From: Vescimonas coprocola
GTDB taxonomy: Bacteria > Bacillota > Clostridia > Oscillospirales > Oscillospiraceae
NCBI RefSeq assembly: GCF_018408575.1
Contig: NZ_AP023418.1
Location: 2,260,415 to 2,324,414, forward strand
DNA length: 64,000 nucleotides
Direction: 5' to 3'
How positions within the stretch are numbered: position 1 is the stretch's first letter; each line of letters starts with the position of its first letter. Shown here piece by piece: positions 56,561 through 63,899 of this stretch. The position numbers and the translations under genes are program-made. The notes under the pieces are model-generated. The model was not told where the DNA came from, did not search any database, and was given only the letters and a program-made list of their open reading frames with translations.

Positions 56561-57973
56561 GTGGCCAATCCACTGCTCATGGCCGAAATTTTCGACAACA
56601 TCAATGAGGGGATCTACATCCTCAACCGCAAGGGAGATTACATCTACTGCAACAATGCCTTTTTGAAGATGGTGGGCGCCACACGGGAGGAGGCGCTGCG
56701 CCTCAACGCTTTCCAGCTGATTCCGGAGGGACAGGTGTCGGTGAGCGTGGCCGTCACAGCCTTTACCGAGAAGAAAAAGGTCTCCGTGGTGAACAACGTC
56801 CTCACCCCCAAGGGGTATCACTACCGCCAGCTGGCCACGGCCACCCCCATCTTCGGCAGCGGCGGCGAGGTGGAGTATATGTTGGTGGAGACCGTTCGGC
56901 TGGATCTGCTGGCCAAGCGGTATCAGCAGGCTATCCTCTATGAGGACGACAGCACCATCGAGGTGCCGGCCCTCTCCCCGGAACGCACACGGGCTAAGGA
57001 GACCATCATCGCAGACAGTCCCGCCATGCAGGCCATCCTCCAGACTGCCGCTCAGGTGGCCCAGACGGACTCCACCGTCCTCATATCCGGCGAGACCGGC
57101 ACCGGCAAGGAGGTGCTGGCCAAGTACATCCACCGCAACAGCAGCCGAGCCGATGCCCCCATCATCGAGATCAACTGCGCCGCCCTGCCGGAGAACCTGC
57201 TGGAGGCGGAGCTGTTCGGCTATACCAAGGGCGCTTTCACCGGAGCCCTGAATACCGGCAAGCCCGGGCTTATTGAGGCGGCCCACGGCGGCACGCTGTT
57301 CCTCGACGAGATCAACTCCCTGCCGCTGGCGCTGCAGGGCAAGTTCCTCCGGGTGCTGGAGAGTCACAAGAGCAAGCGGTTGGGAGCTGTGGAGGAGCAG
57401 GAGATCGACTTCCGCCTGCTGGCCGCCACCAACCAGAACCTCAAGGAGGGCGTGCTGGCCGGGACCTTCCGGGCGGACCTTTACTACCGCCTCAACGTCA
57501 TTCCGCTGGAGCTGCCCCCGCTGCGGGAGCGCCGGGAGGATATCGCCCCACTGGCCACCTTTTTTCTGGACTACTACTGCAAGCGCTACAGCCGCACCAA
57601 GGTCCTCTCCCGCCGAGTCATCGAACAGCTGAAGGCCTACGACTGGCCCGGCAACATCCGGGAGCTGAAAAACGTGGTGGAGCGGCTGCTGGTCACCAGC
57701 GCCGCCGGGACGCTGGAGATCTATCAGGATCTGGCCCCGCTGCTGGGGGAGGATGCCGTCCGCTCCACCTCACCGGAGATCTATCCCGCCGACTGGGAGG
57801 CATTCTATCAGTTTGACCCGGAGCATTTCTCCCTGAAGGCCTACATGGAGTTCTGCGAAAAGCACGTGCTGGCCGACGCCCTGAAGCGCTGCCCCAGCAG
57901 CTATAAAGCAGCGGCTCTGCTGAAAACAGATCAATCCACCATTGTCCGCAAGCGTAAAAAATACGGGCTTTGA
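56561..57973 (+). CDS. PAS domain sigma-54-dependent activator
   Basis: 470 residues. An N-terminal PAS sensor (about 8-110; GIYILNRKGDYIYCNNAFLKMVG), an AAA+ domain with Walker A GETGTGKE (177-184), the sigma-54 contact loop GAFTGA (224-229), GTLFLDEINSLPL as Walker B, and a C-terminal Fis-type helix-turn-helix ending SYKAAALLKTDQSTIVRKRK. No receiver domain, so a small molecule bound by PAS is the likely signal. Start is GTG with CGGAGGG six bases upstream. The -24/-12 promoter 200 bp downstream makes the catabolic operon its obvious target. Confidence 0.93.
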   Translation: MANPLLMAEIFDNINEGIYILNRKGDYIYCNNAFLKMVGATREEALRLNAFQLIPEGQVSVSVAVTAFTEKKKVSVVNNVLTPKGYHYRQLATATPIFGSGGEVEYMLVETVRLDLLAKRYQQAILYEDDSTIEVPALSPERTRAKETIIADSPAMQAILQTAAQVAQTDSTVLISGETGTGKEVLAKYIHRNSSRADAPIIEINCAALPENLLEAELFGYTKGAFTGALNTGKPGLIEAAHGGTLFLDEINSLPLALQGKFLRVLESHKSKRLGAVEEQEIDFRLLAATNQNLKEGVLAGTFRADLYYRLNVIPLELPPLRERREDIAPLATFFLDYYCKRYSRTKVLSRRVIEQLKAYDWPGNIRELKNVVERLLVTSAAGTLEIYQDLAPLLGEDAVRSTSPEIYPADWEAFYQFDPEHFSLKAYMEFCEKHVLADALKRCPSSYKAAALLKTDQSTIVRKRKKYGL

Positions 57974-58091
57974 TCTGTCAAATGGCCCGTTTTTAGCGCA
58001 GAAGCGCAGTCAATGCAATGTTGCATCGGCTGCGTTTTTGCATTATCCGAATCACTGGGGGGATGATGCGTTTTCGCATCATCTGTTTTTT
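57963..58091 (+). terminator. Three successive hairpins after the activator gene
   Basis: First, ACGGGC...GCCCGT at 57963-57990 with TTTTT, overlapping the stop codon. Second, CGCAGTCAATGCAA with TTGCATCGGCTGCG at 58005-58034 with TTTTT; its core ATGCAATGTTGCAT (58013-58026) is a perfect palindrome. Third, GATGATGCG-TTTT-CGCATCATC at 58062-58083 with TTTTTT. The first two look like terminators. The palindromes could also be activator binding sites for the sigma-54 promoter 85-155 bp downstream. Confidence 0.6.
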
Positions 58092-58167
58092 GGAAGCCGG
58101 ATGGTGGAGAAGTCAACAAAAAAATTTTCCCCGTAATGCCGACATTTTCCGACATCACCAAATAAAT

Positions 58168-58182
58168 TGGCACGCCCTTTGC
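58168..58182 (+). promoter_or_regulatory. Sigma-54 (-24/-12) promoter of the catabolic operon
   Basis: TTGGCACGCCCTTTGCTA matches the consensus TGGCACN5TTGC exactly, with GG at 58169-58170 and GC at 58181-58182 (12-bp offset). It lies 160 bp before the permease gene. Repeated CCGACAT units at about 58139-58155 lie just upstream. The leader between promoter and gene (58190-58330) is G+C-rich with possible stems but no gene. Confidence 0.92.
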
Positions 58183-58342
58183 TAAAAAGCTATGCCGTGA
58201 GCCGGTGCTGTTCCGGGCAGCGCCGGGTGGGTTCTACGGAGGGCGGCCCTGCAACCCGCCTCCCCGGCCCCGTCGTTTTCCCCATGTGTTTGAGAAGTAA
58301 CCTACATTCCTGCTTCTTAAAAAGAAAGGAGATCAGAGATCT

Positions 58343-59656
58343 GTGTCCACTACCACCCTTATTTCCCTGATCGTCGTCGTGGTTGCCTTTGCCTTGTTCT
58401 TCTATCTGAGCTTCAAGGGCGTCAACCTGTTTCTGACGGTCTTTGCCTGCACCCTGTTGGTGTCTTTCTGCACGCCGGATGGCATCACCTCGATTTTTAC
58501 AGCCTTCCTCCCCTCCGTAGGCACCATGTTCCAGCAGTTCCTGCTGCTGTATACCATCGGCGGCGCCTTCGGCTTCTGCCTGATGGAGAGCGGCCTCGGC
58601 TCCGCCATGGCGACGCACCTGATTAAAGTGTTCGGCGAGAAATGGATCGCCGTGGCCCTGTTTGTCATCACCTGCCTGATGATGGCGGCCGGTGTGGCCT
58701 CCTATCAGTACGCCATTCTGGCCATTGCCCTGCCGGTGCTGAAAAAGCTGAATATGTCCCGTAAGGTGGCGCTGGCCGCCATGTCCGCCGGTGCAGGCTC
58801 CGTGGCCTACGGCACACTGGTGGGCATGCCCAACGCCCTGAACATCGCACCCACCACCTATCTGGGCACCACCACCATGGCCGGTGTGGGCATCAGCCTG
58901 GTCTGCACCGCCTTCTCTGTGGTGTTCATCGTGGTCTACCTCATCATGCTCACCAACCGCCTGAAGAAGAAGGGCGAGGGCTTCGTCTCCTATACCGATG
59001 ACCCCCAGAACGACGAGGACGAGTCCAAGCTGCCTCCGGCATGGAAGGGCTATCTCTGCGTGGCCGCCATCATCGGCCTGAGCCTGCTGTTCCAGAAGCT
59101 GGGCATCACCGCCCTGCAGGCCACCACCTATGCACAGGTGCTGTCCATCGTGCTGGTGTTCGTGCTGGTAGGCCCCAAGTACCTGCCCCATGTGTTCCAG
59201 ACCTGCGTCCGTGGTATTCAGGGCTCCCTGATCCCCGTGGTGTTCATTTCCATCGTGGTGGGCTACGGCACCGTGGTACAGGCTACCCCTGTGTTCACCC
59301 TGCTGGTGGAGAAGGTGCTGTCCATGAATATGCACCCCTACCTGCTGACCTTCGTGGCGGTGAACCTGCTGTCCGGCCTGTGCGCCAACGGCACCGGCGG
59401 CGTCACCCTGTTCATGAAGAACTTTGGTGATTCCATCCTTGCCAACCCCTCCATCAATCTGGGCGCTCTGCACCGCATTGCCGCCATTTCCGGCGCAGGC
59501 TTCGACTCCCTGCCCCACAACGGCGCCATCGCCTTCCAGCTGTCTGTGTTCAAGCTGTCCTATAAGGAGGGCTATTTCCAGCAGTTCATGATGTCCGTGG
59601 TGGTGAACCTGCTGGCCGGTATCATCGCAGTGGTCATGGCAATGCTGCTCTATTGA
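58343..59656 (+). CDS. GntP-family permease
   Basis: 437 residues with about twelve membrane segments. The signature near the C terminus, ISGAGFDSLPHNGAIAF, and GVASYQYAILAIALPVLKKL are those of the GntP gluconate/3-hydroxybutyrate:H+ symporter group. The start is GTG at 58343 with AAAGGAGAT nine bases upstream. As first gene after the sigma-54 promoter it likely imports the operon's substrate, probably an organic acid. Members of the group carry gluconate, D-serine or 3-hydroxybutyrate, so the fold does not fix the cargo. Confidence 0.85.
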   Translation: MSTTTLISLIVVVVAFALFFYLSFKGVNLFLTVFACTLLVSFCTPDGITSIFTAFLPSVGTMFQQFLLLYTIGGAFGFCLMESGLGSAMATHLIKVFGEKWIAVALFVITCLMMAAGVASYQYAILAIALPVLKKLNMSRKVALAAMSAGAGSVAYGTLVGMPNALNIAPTTYLGTTTMAGVGISLVCTAFSVVFIVVYLIMLTNRLKKKGEGFVSYTDDPQNDEDESKLPPAWKGYLCVAAIIGLSLLFQKLGITALQATTYAQVLSIVLVFVLVGPKYLPHVFQTCVRGIQGSLIPVVFISIVVGYGTVVQATPVFTLLVEKVLSMNMHPYLLTFVAVNLLSGLCANGTGGVTLFMKNFGDSILANPSINLGALHRIAAISGAGFDSLPHNGAIAFQLSVFKLSYKEGYFQQFMMSVVVNLLAGIIAVVMAMLLY

Positions 59657-59728
59657 GTGCCGCCTGCCTGATATAGTCCCATCTATCCGAAACCAACGAA
59701 CAAAATAATTTTTTGGAGGTAAATGATT

Positions 59729-60748
59729 ATGAGTAAGCCCCTGGCAGATTATGTGAAGCTCCCCCAGCTGGAAGAGTACAAGGAGTGGTTCAAGGATTTC
59801 GCCGACCTGTACCGTGAGGACGGCATCCTACAGGTCACCTGGAAGACGCTGGACGGCCCCATGCAGCACAGCGGTATGTCCCACCGGGCCATCGGCCAGC
59901 TGGTGCGTGTCCTGTCTCTGGACTTCAAGAACGAGATCATCATCTTCACCCACATCGGCGACAGTTGGATGACCGAGTCCGATCCCAACGGCTGGGAGAC
60001 CTACTCCGAGCTGCCCACCCAGCGCTTCCAGCACCAGTATTTCGATGACACCAACCTCATCAAGAACATGATCTTCGATCTGGACGTACCCACCATCGGT
60101 GCCATTCCCGGCCCCGGCTTCCACTGGGATTCCGCCATGCTCAGCGATGTGACCATCTGCTCCGACGACACATGGATGGAGGTTCCCCACGCCCACGGCG
60201 GCCTGGTCCCCGGCGACGGCATGGGTCTCATGGCGCAGCATTACTTCGGCACCAAGCGTGGTAATTACTACATGATGACCGCCCGCCAGTGGACGGCCCA
60301 GCAGATGCTGGATTGGGGCATGGTCAGCGAGGTCGTGCCCAAGGACAAGGTCATGGAGCGTGCATGGGAGATCGCCCGCCTGTGGAAGACCATGCCCTAT
60401 GAGAACCGCACCATCATGTCCAACCTTGCCAAGCGTCCTCTGAAGAAGCTGCTGGTGGACGACCTGAAGCTGCACACCGTCTCCGAGCAGTACGGCTCCC
60501 TGCTGCGGATCGCCGCCGGTGAGATGGGCGACACCCATGCCGGCCAGCAGGACGAGAAGTACATCAGCCAGACCAACGACTGGCGCTACTGCCACGACTG
60601 GATGCAGCAGCCTCCCACCCGTGAGAGCTGGGCGGGCTTCCGCACCAAGCCCTTCGAGTGGTTCAAGGAGGTGGAGGCCGGTAAGGAGGTCAACCCCTTC
60701 GACCCCAACAAGAAGGTCTCCCCCTATCGCCCGGAGAAGAAGGACTGA
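59729..60748 (+). CDS. Crotonase-superfamily beta-diketone hydrolase-like protein
   Basis: 339 residues of the crotonase fold, longer than typical enoyl-CoA hydratases. It aligns with 6-oxocamphor hydrolase, a C-C bond hydrolase: His52 (in MSHRAIGQ) with catalytic His45, His132 (in GPGFHWDSAMLSD) with His122, and Asp163 (in GGLVPGDGMG) with Asp154; Trp40 is replaced by His47. The two Glu residues of hydratases are absent at the usual places. So cleavage of a beta-diketone by a retro-Claisen reaction is more likely than hydration. TTGGAGGT lies eight bases before the ATG. A polar ~60-residue C-terminal extension has no clear role. Confidence 0.8.
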   Translation: MSKPLADYVKLPQLEEYKEWFKDFADLYREDGILQVTWKTLDGPMQHSGMSHRAIGQLVRVLSLDFKNEIIIFTHIGDSWMTESDPNGWETYSELPTQRFQHQYFDDTNLIKNMIFDLDVPTIGAIPGPGFHWDSAMLSDVTICSDDTWMEVPHAHGGLVPGDGMGLMAQHYFGTKRGNYYMMTARQWTAQQMLDWGMVSEVVPKDKVMERAWEIARLWKTMPYENRTIMSNLAKRPLKKLLVDDLKLHTVSEQYGSLLRIAAGEMGDTHAGQQDEKYISQTNDWRYCHDWMQQPPTRESWAGFRTKPFEWFKEVEAGKEVNPFDPNKKVSPYRPEKKD

Positions 60749-60829: not shown

Positions 60830-61684
60830 ATGGCAAAAACCATCATTACCGCTGCCCTCACCGGTGCTGTCACCCCTGCGGGCTATCATATTCCCGAAAC
60901 GCCGGAGCAGATCGTGCAGGCCGCCTATGAGTGCTGGCAGCTGGGCGCTGCCGTGGTGCATATCCACACCCGTGCCGCCGACGGTAAGGGTGCTATGAAC
61001 ACGCAGGCCTTCCGTGAGATCGTGGAGGGCATCCGTGCCCACAAGGACTGCGACGTTATCATCAACTGCACCTCCTCCGGGGCCTCCCCGGAGCATCCCG
61101 CCACCGACGAGGAGCGCTTTCTGCACCACATGACCGTTCCCGGCATTGAAATGGGTTCCTACGATGCAGGCAGCTTCAACTGGATGCCCGGCGGCGTGTT
61201 CGTCAACAGCCCCCAGTTTTTGCAGAAGCTGGGCGATGCCTATCTGGAAAAGGGCATCAAGCCGGAGATCGAGATCTTTGATGCCGGTATGCTGGGCATC
61301 GCCGATTACTTCGTCAAGAAGGGCCACCTGTCCACCCCCTGTCACTACCAGTTCTGTCTGGGGGTGCTGGGCGGTATGCCCGCTACGGTGGAGAACCTGA
61401 TCTATCTGAAGGACCGCATCCCCGCCGGCTCCACGTGGTCCGCCTTCGGCATCGGCGCCGCCCACCTGCCTATCCTGTACGCCGCTCTGGCGCTGGGCGG
61501 ACACATCCGTGTGGGGATGGAGGATAACGTCATCTTCGGCAAGGACGAAAACGGCAAGAAGATCATGGCCACCAACCAGATGCTGGTGCAGCGGGCCGTG
61601 GAGGCCGTCAAGCTCTTCGGCAATCAGCCTGCCACCCCCGCCGAGGCCCGTGAAATTCTGGGCATCCCGCCGCTGGTTCGCTGA
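60830..61684 (+). CDS. BKACE family beta-keto acid cleavage enzyme (DUF849)
   Basis: 284 residues related to 3-keto-5-aminohexanoate cleavage enzyme (Kce). Zinc ligands His44 and His46 (VVHIHTR) and Glu231, plus the Arg227/Asp232 pair (HIRVGMEDN), are kept. The family condenses a beta-keto acid with acetyl-CoA and releases acetoacetate and a new acyl-CoA. Kce Glu14, which faces the substrate side chain, is Val14 here (LTGAVTPAG), so the lysine-pathway substrate is unlikely and a neutral or hydrophobic group is suggested. CGAGGAG precedes the ATG. Confidence 0.9.
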   Translation: MAKTIITAALTGAVTPAGYHIPETPEQIVQAAYECWQLGAAVVHIHTRAADGKGAMNTQAFREIVEGIRAHKDCDVIINCTSSGASPEHPATDEERFLHHMTVPGIEMGSYDAGSFNWMPGGVFVNSPQFLQKLGDAYLEKGIKPEIEIFDAGMLGIADYFVKKGHLSTPCHYQFCLGVLGGMPATVENLIYLKDRIPAGSTWSAFGIGAAHLPILYAALALGGHIRVGMEDNVIFGKDENGKKIMATNQMLVQRAVEAVKLFGNQPATPAEAREILGIPPLVR

Positions 61685-61695
61685 AGGAGGACGGT

Positions 61696-62658
61696 ATGAA
61701 CGTTTCTGATATCAAAAATGTCGCCTGTGTCGGCGGCGGCGTCATCGGCTCCAGCTGGGCCATCCAGTATGCCCTGAAGGGCCTGCACGTCACCCTCTAC
61801 GACATCAACGACCAGCAGCTGGCCAAGAGCCACGACCAGATGCTCCGCAGTCTGGACACACTGGTGGCCCACAACGCCATCACCGCCGCCCGCAAGGACG
61901 AGATCATCGCCTGCGTGCGCCCCACCACCTCCATGGAGGAGGCGGTGCAGGACGCCCAGTTCATTCAGGAGAGCGGCCCGGAGCGCATCGAGATCAAGCG
62001 CTCCATTCTGGCGCAGGTGGAGCAGTATGCCGCCCCGGACGCCCTGTACGCCAGCAGCACCTCCGGCCTGCTGATCTCCGATATCGTGGCCGAGGCGCTT
62101 CACCCGGAGCGCTGCATCGGAGCTCACCCCTACAATCCCCCGCACCTGATTCCTCTGGTGGAGCTCACCCGCTGCGACAAGACGGACGATGACTGCGTCC
62201 AATTGGCCTATGATTTCTATCAGTCCATTGGCAAGGAGGCCGTTCTGCTGCGTAAGGAGTGCCCCGGCTTCATTGCCAACCGTCTGCAGCTGGCCCTGTA
62301 TCGTGAGGTGCAGGATCTGGTGATGCGGGGCGTATGCTCCGTGGAGGATGTGGACAAGGCACTGGTGTACGGTCCCGGCATCCGTTGGGCCATCTTTGGC
62401 CACAACATGATCATGCAGATGGGCAACCCCGGCGGCCTCACCGGCATGGTGGAGATGCTGGGCAATTCCGGCGACCGCTGGCTGGAGGATATGGCCAGCT
62501 GGACCCACCAGCCGGACAACTGGGCGCAGGTGGCCCAGCCCGGCGTGAATCAGGAGATGGCCAACTTCCCCGACTACATCGGCCACACCAATGCCGAGTG
62601 TATCGCCTACCGGGATCAGATGCTCATCGACATCCTGAAGCTCCATAAGAAGCTGTGA
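61696..62658 (+). CDS. 3-hydroxyacyl-CoA dehydrogenase-family NAD dehydrogenase
   Basis: 320 residues. The NAD fold opens VACVGGGVIGSSWAIQYAL, and the catalytic His-Glu pair lies in IGAHPYNPPHLIPLVEL. The single C-terminal domain has KECPGFIANRLQLALYREV and GPGIRWAIFGHNMIMQMG. This length and layout match L-gulonate 3-dehydrogenase and L-carnitine dehydrogenase, which oxidise free 3-hydroxy acids; lone fatty-acid enzymes are shorter (~280). It would make the beta-keto acid for the BKACE enzyme encoded just upstream. AAGGAGG lies before the ATG. Confidence 0.88.
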   Translation: MNVSDIKNVACVGGGVIGSSWAIQYALKGLHVTLYDINDQQLAKSHDQMLRSLDTLVAHNAITAARKDEIIACVRPTTSMEEAVQDAQFIQESGPERIEIKRSILAQVEQYAAPDALYASSTSGLLISDIVAEALHPERCIGAHPYNPPHLIPLVELTRCDKTDDDCVQLAYDFYQSIGKEAVLLRKECPGFIANRLQLALYREVQDLVMRGVCSVEDVDKALVYGPGIRWAIFGHNMIMQMGNPGGLTGMVEMLGNSGDRWLEDMASWTHQPDNWAQVAQPGVNQEMANFPDYIGHTNAECIAYRDQMLIDILKLHKKL

Positions 62659-62666
62659 GGCTCCCT

Positions 62667-63899
62667 ATGAACGACATCAACGGATTCCTCAAGCGCCGCT
62701 GGCCGGCCATGATCGCCAGTCTCCTGATCTGCATCTGCGCCGGCTTCGGCTACGCATGGAGCGTGCTTCAGACCCCCATCATCGCCGCCCACGGCTGGCC
62801 GGATCAGCAGGTCTCCCTGACGTATACGGTGACGGTGCTGTGCTCCACCATGGCGCCGCTGTTCTTCGGCGGCCTGATCCGCCGTCTGGGGACCCGGCGC
62901 TGCGTGGTGGTGGGCGCCGTTCTGTTCGGGGCGGGCCTGATGGCCACCGGCTGGATCAGTGGCGGCGTGTGGCAGCTCTACCTGTTCTACGGCATTCTCT
63001 CCGGTCTGGGGACCGGCTTCGTCTACCCGGCCATGATGGCCTATGTGGTGCGCCTGTTCCCGGAAAAGTCCGGTATGGCCTCCGGCCTCGGCACAGCGGC
63101 CTACGGCTCCGGAGCCATTCTCTGGGCGCCGGTGGCAGCGGCCCTGATCCGCAGCGTGAATCTGCGGGGGACGTTCTGCATTCTGGGTGGTGCCTTTCTG
63201 GTGCTGATCCTGCTGGGCAGCACCCTGCTGGCAGAGCCCCCGCAGGATCTGCGGGAGGCCCTGTGCCCCCCCTCCGGCGACGCTCCCATTCAGGCGGAGG
63301 GACTGCGCCGGGGCCAGATGGTCAAAACGGCGGCCTTCTATGGGATGGTGGTCATCTTCACCTGCGGTCTGGTGGCCGGCGTCATCGTCATCAGCCAGGC
63401 TTCCCCCATTCTCCAGAACGCCTACGGCTTCACCAGCGCTACGGCGGCGGTGTTTGTCAGCGTATTTGCCGCCTGCAACATGGCGGGCCGCTTCCTGTGG
63501 GGCAGCCTGTCTGACCGACTGGGCCTGCGCCGTGTGGTGACGGCCGTGTCGGCGGTGTGCATCCTCGCCATGCTGCTGCTGACCCTCTGCCACGCCACCG
63601 TTCCCGCCGTGATCGCCATGGGTGTGGCGGCCAGCTGCTACGGCGGCTTTGCCTCCGTCCTGACGCCGCTGACGGCGCAGGTGTTCGGCAGCAAATATAT
63701 CACCGAGAACTACGGCGTCATGTACATCGTGTTCGGCTTGGCCAGCCTCATCGGCCCGGTGCTGGCGGTGCGTCTGCGCACCCCGGACGGGGCCTATACG
63801 TGGGCCTTTGCCGCTGCGGCCGTGCTGGCTGCCGTGGGGCTCATTCTCAACTGTATCGTCCCGCTTACCGCCGGAAAGGAGGCCCCACATGGAAAGTAA
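62667..63899 (+). CDS. MFS transporter, OFA (oxalate/formate antiporter) type
   Basis: 410 residues, twelve membrane segments. The first half shows SLLICICAGFGYAWSVLQTPI and the loop GGLIRRLGTRRCVVVG; the second half has GRFLWGSLSDRLGLRRVV. The N-terminal pattern is that of the OFA subfamily, which exchanges organic anions. I use ATG 62667 (GAGG six bases upstream); a GTG at 62655 overlaps the dehydrogenase stop. As the second carrier of the operon it may export a product or exchange it for substrate. Confidence 0.85.
   Translation: MNDINGFLKRRWPAMIASLLICICAGFGYAWSVLQTPIIAAHGWPDQQVSLTYTVTVLCSTMAPLFFGGLIRRLGTRRCVVVGAVLFGAGLMATGWISGGVWQLYLFYGILSGLGTGFVYPAMMAYVVRLFPEKSGMASGLGTAAYGSGAILWAPVAAALIRSVNLRGTFCILGGAFLVLILLGSTLLAEPPQDLREALCPPSGDAPIQAEGLRRGQMVKTAAFYGMVVIFTCGLVAGVIVISQASPILQNAYGFTSATAAVFVSVFAACNMAGRFLWGSLSDRLGLRRVVTAVSAVCILAMLLLTLCHATVPAVIAMGVAASCYGGFASVLTPLTAQVFGSKYITENYGVMYIVFGLASLIGPVLAVRLRTPDGAYTWAFAAAAVLAAVGLILNCIVPLTAGKEAPHGK

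Follow-up and report, generated by a model that had tools for sequence, protein, structure and literature searches.

The gene at positions 59729-60748 of the window, by which we mean the whole 64,000-nucleotide stretch of Vescimonas coprocola DNA analyzed here, very likely encodes a beta-diketone hydrolase of the 6-oxocamphor hydrolase (OCH) type that works without CoA, as judged from its sequence, residues, fold model and tree. We predict, with a probability of roughly 0.6, that this enzyme opens the ring in an operon for phloroglucinol-like fermentation. An OCH-type crotonase would then stand in the slot that a Mn-dependent, cyclase-family ring opener occupies in phloroglucinol fermentation. 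The proposal draws on the sequence, its residues, a fold model, a tree, the gene order and a promoter, and from these the activity, the ring substrate and the order of steps are predicted. The features of the region, all on the + strand, are the following.

56561..57973 (+), PAS-domain sigma-54-dependent activator (Pfam Sigma54_activat 1.3e-67, PAS, HTH_50)
58014..58078 (+), three near-palindromic 12-mers TGCRWTKTYGCA at 58014, 58031 and 58067, candidate upstream activator sites
58167..58183 (+), sigma-54 (-24/-12) promoter TTGGCACGCCCTTTGCT, perfect consensus
58343..59656 (+), membrane transporter, weakly GntP/Na+-H+ antiporter-like (Na_H_antiporter 18.8 bits, GntP 16.1 bits)
59729..60748 (+), OCH-type crotonase, predicted beta-diketone (retro-Claisen) hydrolase (residues, sequence matches, fold model, tree)
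60830..61684 (+), beta-keto acid cleavage enzyme, BKACE (Pfam BKACE 6e-88; alignment with PDB 2y7d)
61696..62658 (+), 3-hydroxyacid dehydrogenase, lambda-crystallin/carnitine-dehydrogenase-like (closest PDB match lambda-crystallin, 1.4e-41, ahead of CoA-type dehydrogenases)
62667..63899 (+), MFS carboxylate transporter (NCBIfam SfMCT, L-lactate MFS, 337.8 bits, cut-off 320)

The crotonase has 339 amino acids and its open reading frame starts mechanically at 59723, with an ATG at 59729 and a GGAGG at 59715-59719, 9 bases 5' of this ATG. Catalysis by OCH involves His45, His122, His145, Asp154 and Glu244, and the alignment places His52, His132, His154, Asp163 and Glu253 of the crotonase opposite these residues, so that all five are present. 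The initial annotation had matched three of them (His52, His132 and Asp163), had noted a PGDG motif common to both proteins and had reported that OCH Trp40 is replaced by His; the alignment confirmed each of these points, identified the His as His47 and added the matches at His154 and Glu253. In a family alignment of 54 members (about 33 to 100% identity), His132, His154 and Asp163 were found in 54/54, His52 in 53/54 and Glu253 in 48/54 sequences, with Gln at the latter position in six remote members. The position of Trp40 is not conserved, being Phe in Alr4455 and His, Trp or Leu across the family, and the contact of Trp40 to the ring ketone is, by this sequence comparison, not family-defining, since Alr4455 also lacks the Trp. 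The His/His/Asp set was absent from all 12 ECH_1 crotonases (0/12) taken from the searched genomes and from a feruloyl-CoA hydratase-lyase reference. The catalytic glutamates and the sequence of the CoA/oxyanion loops of CoA-dependent crotonases, including the glycine-rich (GGG) oxyanion loop, in turn, were missing from the aligned crotonase, which has a GF-HWD loop where enoyl-CoA hydratases have G-G-G and His154 at the position of the second glutamate. Similarly, butyrate-type crotonases carry a GGGxE loop and a P-E glutamate, whereas the OCH-like family has H(W/P/S)(D/E) and a His instead.

Database searches gave Alr4455 (9e-33) and then OCH (1.3e-28) as the best PDB sequence matches, and the next crotonases in the PDB were hydroxycinnamoyl-CoA hydratase-lyases at 4e-8 and weaker. 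Among Pfam models only ECH_1 and ECH_2 matched, ECH_1 being the sole model above its cut-off; the PF04199 cyclase domain of dihydrophloroglucinol cyclohydrolase was not found by Pfam, and no NCBIfam model exceeded its cut-off. Because only the generic ECH_1 model passes, the expected automatic name is enoyl-CoA hydratase/isomerase, as the initial annotation had anticipated. An AlphaFold2 model built with the 54-row alignment as input (pLDDT 91.4, pTM 0.91) was compared to the PDB with Foldseek, and the first 12 matches were all OCH/ABDH chains (TM 0.88-0.92 on target), CoA-type crotonases following with E-values weaker by roughly four to five orders of magnitude. In a maximum-likelihood tree, a branch with 100/100 support parts 56 OCH-like rows (OCH, Alr4455 and all 54 relatives) from 13 CoA-type rows, and the order inside the OCH-like clade is less sure because of the long end branches of the references OCH and Alr4455. 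Thus the structure prediction and the phylogeny, both of which had been proposed as checks, place the crotonase with OCH and the Anabaena enzyme, as do its residues, and not in a CoA-dependent clade, the outcome that had been named as speaking against membership in the 6-oxocamphor hydrolase group. The window genome also has a separate genuine crotonase elsewhere (6e-70 to a solved short-chain enoyl-CoA hydratase), so the gene at 59729-60748 is not needed for enoyl-CoA hydration.

By analogy with OCH, the crotonase would open a cyclic 1,3-diketone in a retro-Claisen reaction, adding water across the C-C bond that links its two carbonyls and so giving a free keto acid, with His154 and Asp163 binding the attacked carbonyl and activating water, and with His132, His52 and Glu253 completing the active site. 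The dehydrogenase would turn the ring-opened product into a 3-keto acid, which BKACE would split with acetyl-CoA to acetoacetate and acyl-CoA; a CoA-transferase could then pass CoA to acetoacetate, and a thiolase step would lead to acetyl-CoA.

The arrangement of the region, an operon that the initial annotation had not described, fits such a sequence of steps. Intergenic gaps of 8 to 81 bases from the transporter to the MFS gene are consistent with one transcript, and past the window end (L220:8304-10786) the operon continues with CoA-transferase subunits A (CtfA) and B (CtfB) and a thiolase. The activator at 56561..57973, for which the best NCBIfam match is PrdR-like and below cut-off, is likely the regulator of the crotonase operon. 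The promoter TTGGCACGCCCTTTGCT is the sole consensus match in the window (0.01 expected), and across the 2.56 Mb genome no other site matches TTGGCACNNNNNTTGCW exactly. The repeats TGCRWTKTYGCA lie 90-155 bases upstream of this promoter and occur three times in the window where 0.16 matches were expected and no shuffle reached three, a statistic that is suggestive only, because the motif was written after the repeats had been seen. For the transporter at 58343..59656 no Pfam model exceeded its cut-off, and relatives of it occur in two other crotonase operons (L019, L063). The dehydrogenase, with the motifs SSTS at 120, HPYNPP at 144 and NR at 195, is predicted from its sequence to act on a free 3-hydroxy acid. 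Residue 14 of the window BKACE is Val; Val, Ile or Met occupies this position in the crotonase-linked BKACEs, TALs of the phloroglucinol pathway have Trp, and the lysine-fermentation enzyme KCE has Glu14.

A single scan, in which patterns taken from a family alignment were run against GTDB species genomes, left 79 distinct loci. These come from Flavonifractor plautii, other Flavonifractor, Pseudoflavonifractor phocaeensis, Intestinimonas, Coprococcus catus, Eubacterium ramulus, Olsenella profusa, Propionibacterium australiense, a Treponema MAG and many gut and ruminant MAGs (roe deer, goat), with remoter members of 35-41% identity in Alteromonas, Rhodospirillales, Xanthobacteraceae, actinobacteria and a Desulfobacteraceae MAG. 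The phyla represented are Pseudomonadota, Thermodesulfobacteriota, Spirochaetota, Actinomycetota and, with many anaerobes, Bacillota, and given this breadth the family extends beyond both aerobic actinobacteria and the window genome. The initial annotation had described beta-diketone hydrolases of this group as known mainly from aerobic actinobacteria, which is too narrow in view of the Anabaena enzyme and of members in five phyla. It had also expected novelty in an anaerobic gut Clostridium: the nearest relatives are from Flavonifractor and Intestinimonas (Oscillospiraceae), including F. plautii ATCC 29863 at 89%, so the gene is not peculiar to this genome, but our literature search found no paper describing these relatives and no description of OCH-type enzymes in gut anaerobes. 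Many genomes have two crotonase paralogues, in tandem or apart. Some paralogues stand alone; in several Oscillospiraceae MAGs (L044, L045, L048, L049, L050, L066), for example, one paralogue lies directly 3' of rplM-rpsI, away from catabolic genes. The second tandem copy of F. plautii ATCC 29863 (L069:11048-11851) is shortened by a reading-frame change in a draft assembly, and the second copy of genome G085 (L012:4043-6544) is only a 127-residue C-terminal piece in frame with a mobile-element-like (ArdC-like) ORF, which suggests disruption by insertion.

The window genome shares its gene core around the crotonase with F. plautii, other Flavonifractor, Pseudoflavonifractor, Intestinimonas and C. 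catus. At the 23 crotonase loci flanked by 5 kb or more in both directions, neighbors included BKACE (11/23), dehydrogenase (10/23), thiolase (11/23) and CoA-transferase (13/23), and only 0-8 BKACEs occur per genome. In crotonase clusters of several genomes a cupin and a different SDR (not PGR) are present. The downstream route varies, because in Olsenella, Propionibacterium and Treponema relatives an ADC-like and an MMSDH-like enzyme adjoin the crotonase and BKACE is lacking. An alternative operon of cupin, SDR, ADC-like enzyme and CoA-acylating MMSDH-like dehydrogenase, again without BKACE, was observed at L027:4836-8587, L031, L047 and L052. Inositol catabolism was considered as the source of the substrate on account of the SDRs and the MMSDH-like gene of the Olsenella-type operons, and no further support for it was found. 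The Flavonifractor crotonase neighbors (a DUF362 protein, its small partner and a dehydrogenase) recur in second clusters of genomes G055 and G295 that carry a cyclase, from which we infer that both enzyme types fill the same chemical slot; this exchange was seen in two related genomes and the dehydrogenases are non-identical. The DUF362 protein and its 90-residue partner recur as a pair in cyclase- and crotonase-type clusters (L069:3503-5042; L144:15623-17184; L216:9380-10933), and our literature search found nothing relevant on DUF362 with phloroglucinol.

The crotonase might be a beta-diketone hydrolase of the OCH type whose natural substrate is linear or not derived from phenols, for example a linear 1,3-diketone trimmed in a carnitine- or sugar-acid-like 3-hydroxy acid route. 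Such a route would suit an operon that encodes no ring reductase, whose dehydrogenase resembles L-carnitine dehydrogenase and lambda-crystallin and whose two transporters both resemble carboxylate carriers, and the dehydrogenase, BKACE, CoA-transferase and thiolase would suffice to convert any free 3-hydroxy acid to RCOOH and acetyl-CoA. However, a crotonase would be superfluous in a carnitine-type route, whereas among the clusters it is the one element that stays constant; the solved relatives act on cyclic diketones, and the cupin and SDR reductase of related clusters are reminiscent of phloroglucinol clusters. We regard a substrate that is linear or not phenol-derived as rather unlikely.

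The anaerobic phloroglucinol pathway of Clostridium scatologenes, as set out in PMC10470551, consists of PGR (an SDR reductase), DPGC (a cyclase-family Mn-dependent cyclohydrolase that opens the ring by a retro-Claisen reaction), TfD (a free-acid 3-hydroxyacid dehydrogenase) and TAL (a BKACE), together with thiolase and CoA-transferase. Phloroglucinol clusters were recovered from C. catus (L136), E. ramulus (L137) and a Flavonifractor (L138), and in all three a small cupin gene lies close to PGR. The C. catus reductase scored 458 bits against 5g4k, which we take to be a PGR structure. Its adjoining small cupin (L136:9015-9368) has counterparts in the E. ramulus and Flavonifractor phloroglucinol clusters and in the SDR-bearing crotonase clusters, and the accessible parts of PMC10470551 do not mention a small cupin beside PGR. 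Orthologs of PGR (77-100% identical to that of C. catus) are found in addition to the crotonase in C. catus, E. ramulus, F. plautii and genomes G055, G085 and G295. Family and protein searches of the genomes, on which all gene absences given here rest, found no PGR ortholog in the window genome (best match 29%), Olsenella or Propionibacterium, and in the window genome neither DPGC nor the cluster layout of PGR and DPGC beside TfD and TAL. Two candidates were rejected: the sole cyclase-family gene of the window genome as DPGC, as it is short (215 aa) and has an unrelated neighborhood (L140), and the reductase SDR8 as a PGR ortholog, as its match to 5g4k (143 bits) ranks below gluconate 5-dehydrogenase.

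A second dihydrophloroglucinol cyclohydrolase, acting on the very substrate of the cyclase-family enzyme, would agree with downstream enzymes of the same kind and with a window genome that lacks both the cyclase-type enzyme and PGR. It is quite improbable, though, given that C. catus, E. ramulus and several Flavonifractor have the phloroglucinol cluster (or PGR) plus the crotonase, that the crotonase-linked BKACEs do not have the Trp of TAL, and that dihydrophloroglucinol cannot be made by the known route without PGR. Phloroglucinol itself was down-weighted as the substrate on the same grounds. That the protein is instead a CoA-dependent crotonase that diverged and lost the usual glutamates, be it a hydratase, a thioester hydrolase or an isomerase, might be suggested by ECH_1 as the only model above its cut-off and by the CoA esters handled by other operon enzymes, but is highly improbable in the face of a complete OCH catalytic set without the GGG loop, 12 best structural matches that are all CoA-independent, the 100/100 grouping with OCH and the other CoA crotonase in the genome.

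For the predicted ring opener, since the known PGR/DPGC pair is absent here and both pathways coexist in several relatives, the probable substrate is a cyclic 1,3-diketone similar to that of the phloroglucinol pathway but distinct from it, probably a relative of dihydrophloroglucinol. The distribution of PGR, residue 14 of BKACE and the type of dehydrogenase likewise point to such a distinct 1,3-diketone, which may be bulkier. Several observations weigh against the ring-opener reading: an identity to OCH of only 26-28%, the long branches of OCH and Alr4455, an operon that encodes no ring reductase, the variable downstream route, the lone paralogues, and a cyclase/crotonase exchange seen in two related genomes.

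A tentative candidate, unlikely as it stands, is that the crotonase clusters supply the missing route of A-ring fission for phloroglucinol rings with a C-alkyl group, such as that of the catechin-derived diphenylpropan-2-ol. According to the accessible parts of PMC9281540 and PMC11887054, which do not name the genes involved, F. plautii, a carrier of the crotonase cluster, opens the A ring of this compound to the valerolactone or valeric acid. After ring reduction, the crotonase would open the alkylated 1,3-diketone to a 3-hydroxy-5-oxo acid, the dehydrogenase would form the 3,5-dioxo acid, BKACE, in which Val, Ile or Met in place of the TAL Trp would leave space to fit the side chain, would yield acetoacetate and a 3-oxoacyl-CoA, and thiolase and CoA-transferase would release R-CH2-COOH, the hydroxyphenyl-valeric acid or valerolactone of dietary catechins. 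With a C-alkylated phloroglucinol ring as the substrate, each enzyme of the F. plautii-type core would find a use.

If the ring-opening proposal is true, gut and rumen anaerobes open plant-phenol-derived diketone rings with an OCH-type crotonase and not with a metal-dependent cyclase, a large set of genes now named enoyl-CoA hydratase would become markers of aromatic-ring fermentation, and candidates would be at hand for gene-less phenol ring-fission steps in human gut bacteria, possibly including the formation of catechin-derived valerolactone.

Compared to known systems, the crotonase has only its fold in common with short-chain enoyl-CoA hydratase (e.g., PDB 5z7r), from which it differs by the missing catalytic glutamates and GGG loop and by its separate clade. 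It resembles the beta-diketone hydrolase Alr4455/ABDH of Anabaena PCC 7120 (PDB 2j5g, 2j5s), its best PDB sequence match (TM 0.89), which has the same His/His/His/Asp set over the aligned part, although their identity is only about 30%. With OCH (PDB 1o8u, 1szo) it shares the five catalytic residues, the PGDG motif, the clade and the fold (TM 0.92 on target, rmsd 1.7), but identity is 26-28%, Trp40 is exchanged for His47, a C-terminal extension of about 75 residues is not seen in OCH, the host is anaerobic and the operon contains BKACE, dehydrogenase and thiolase genes and does not belong to camphor catabolism. Like the C. scatologenes pathway, the operon combines a predicted retro-Claisen ring opener with BKACE, 3-hydroxyacid dehydrogenase, CoA-transferase and thiolase; in contrast to it, the ring opener is a crotonase instead of a PF04199 cyclase, PGR is lacking, residue 14 of BKACE is Val where TAL has Trp, and the dehydrogenase is lambda-crystallin-like and not a TfD ortholog. 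In summary, the family assignment by itself adds a further member to the known OCH-type enzymes, and the variant lies in the pathway context.
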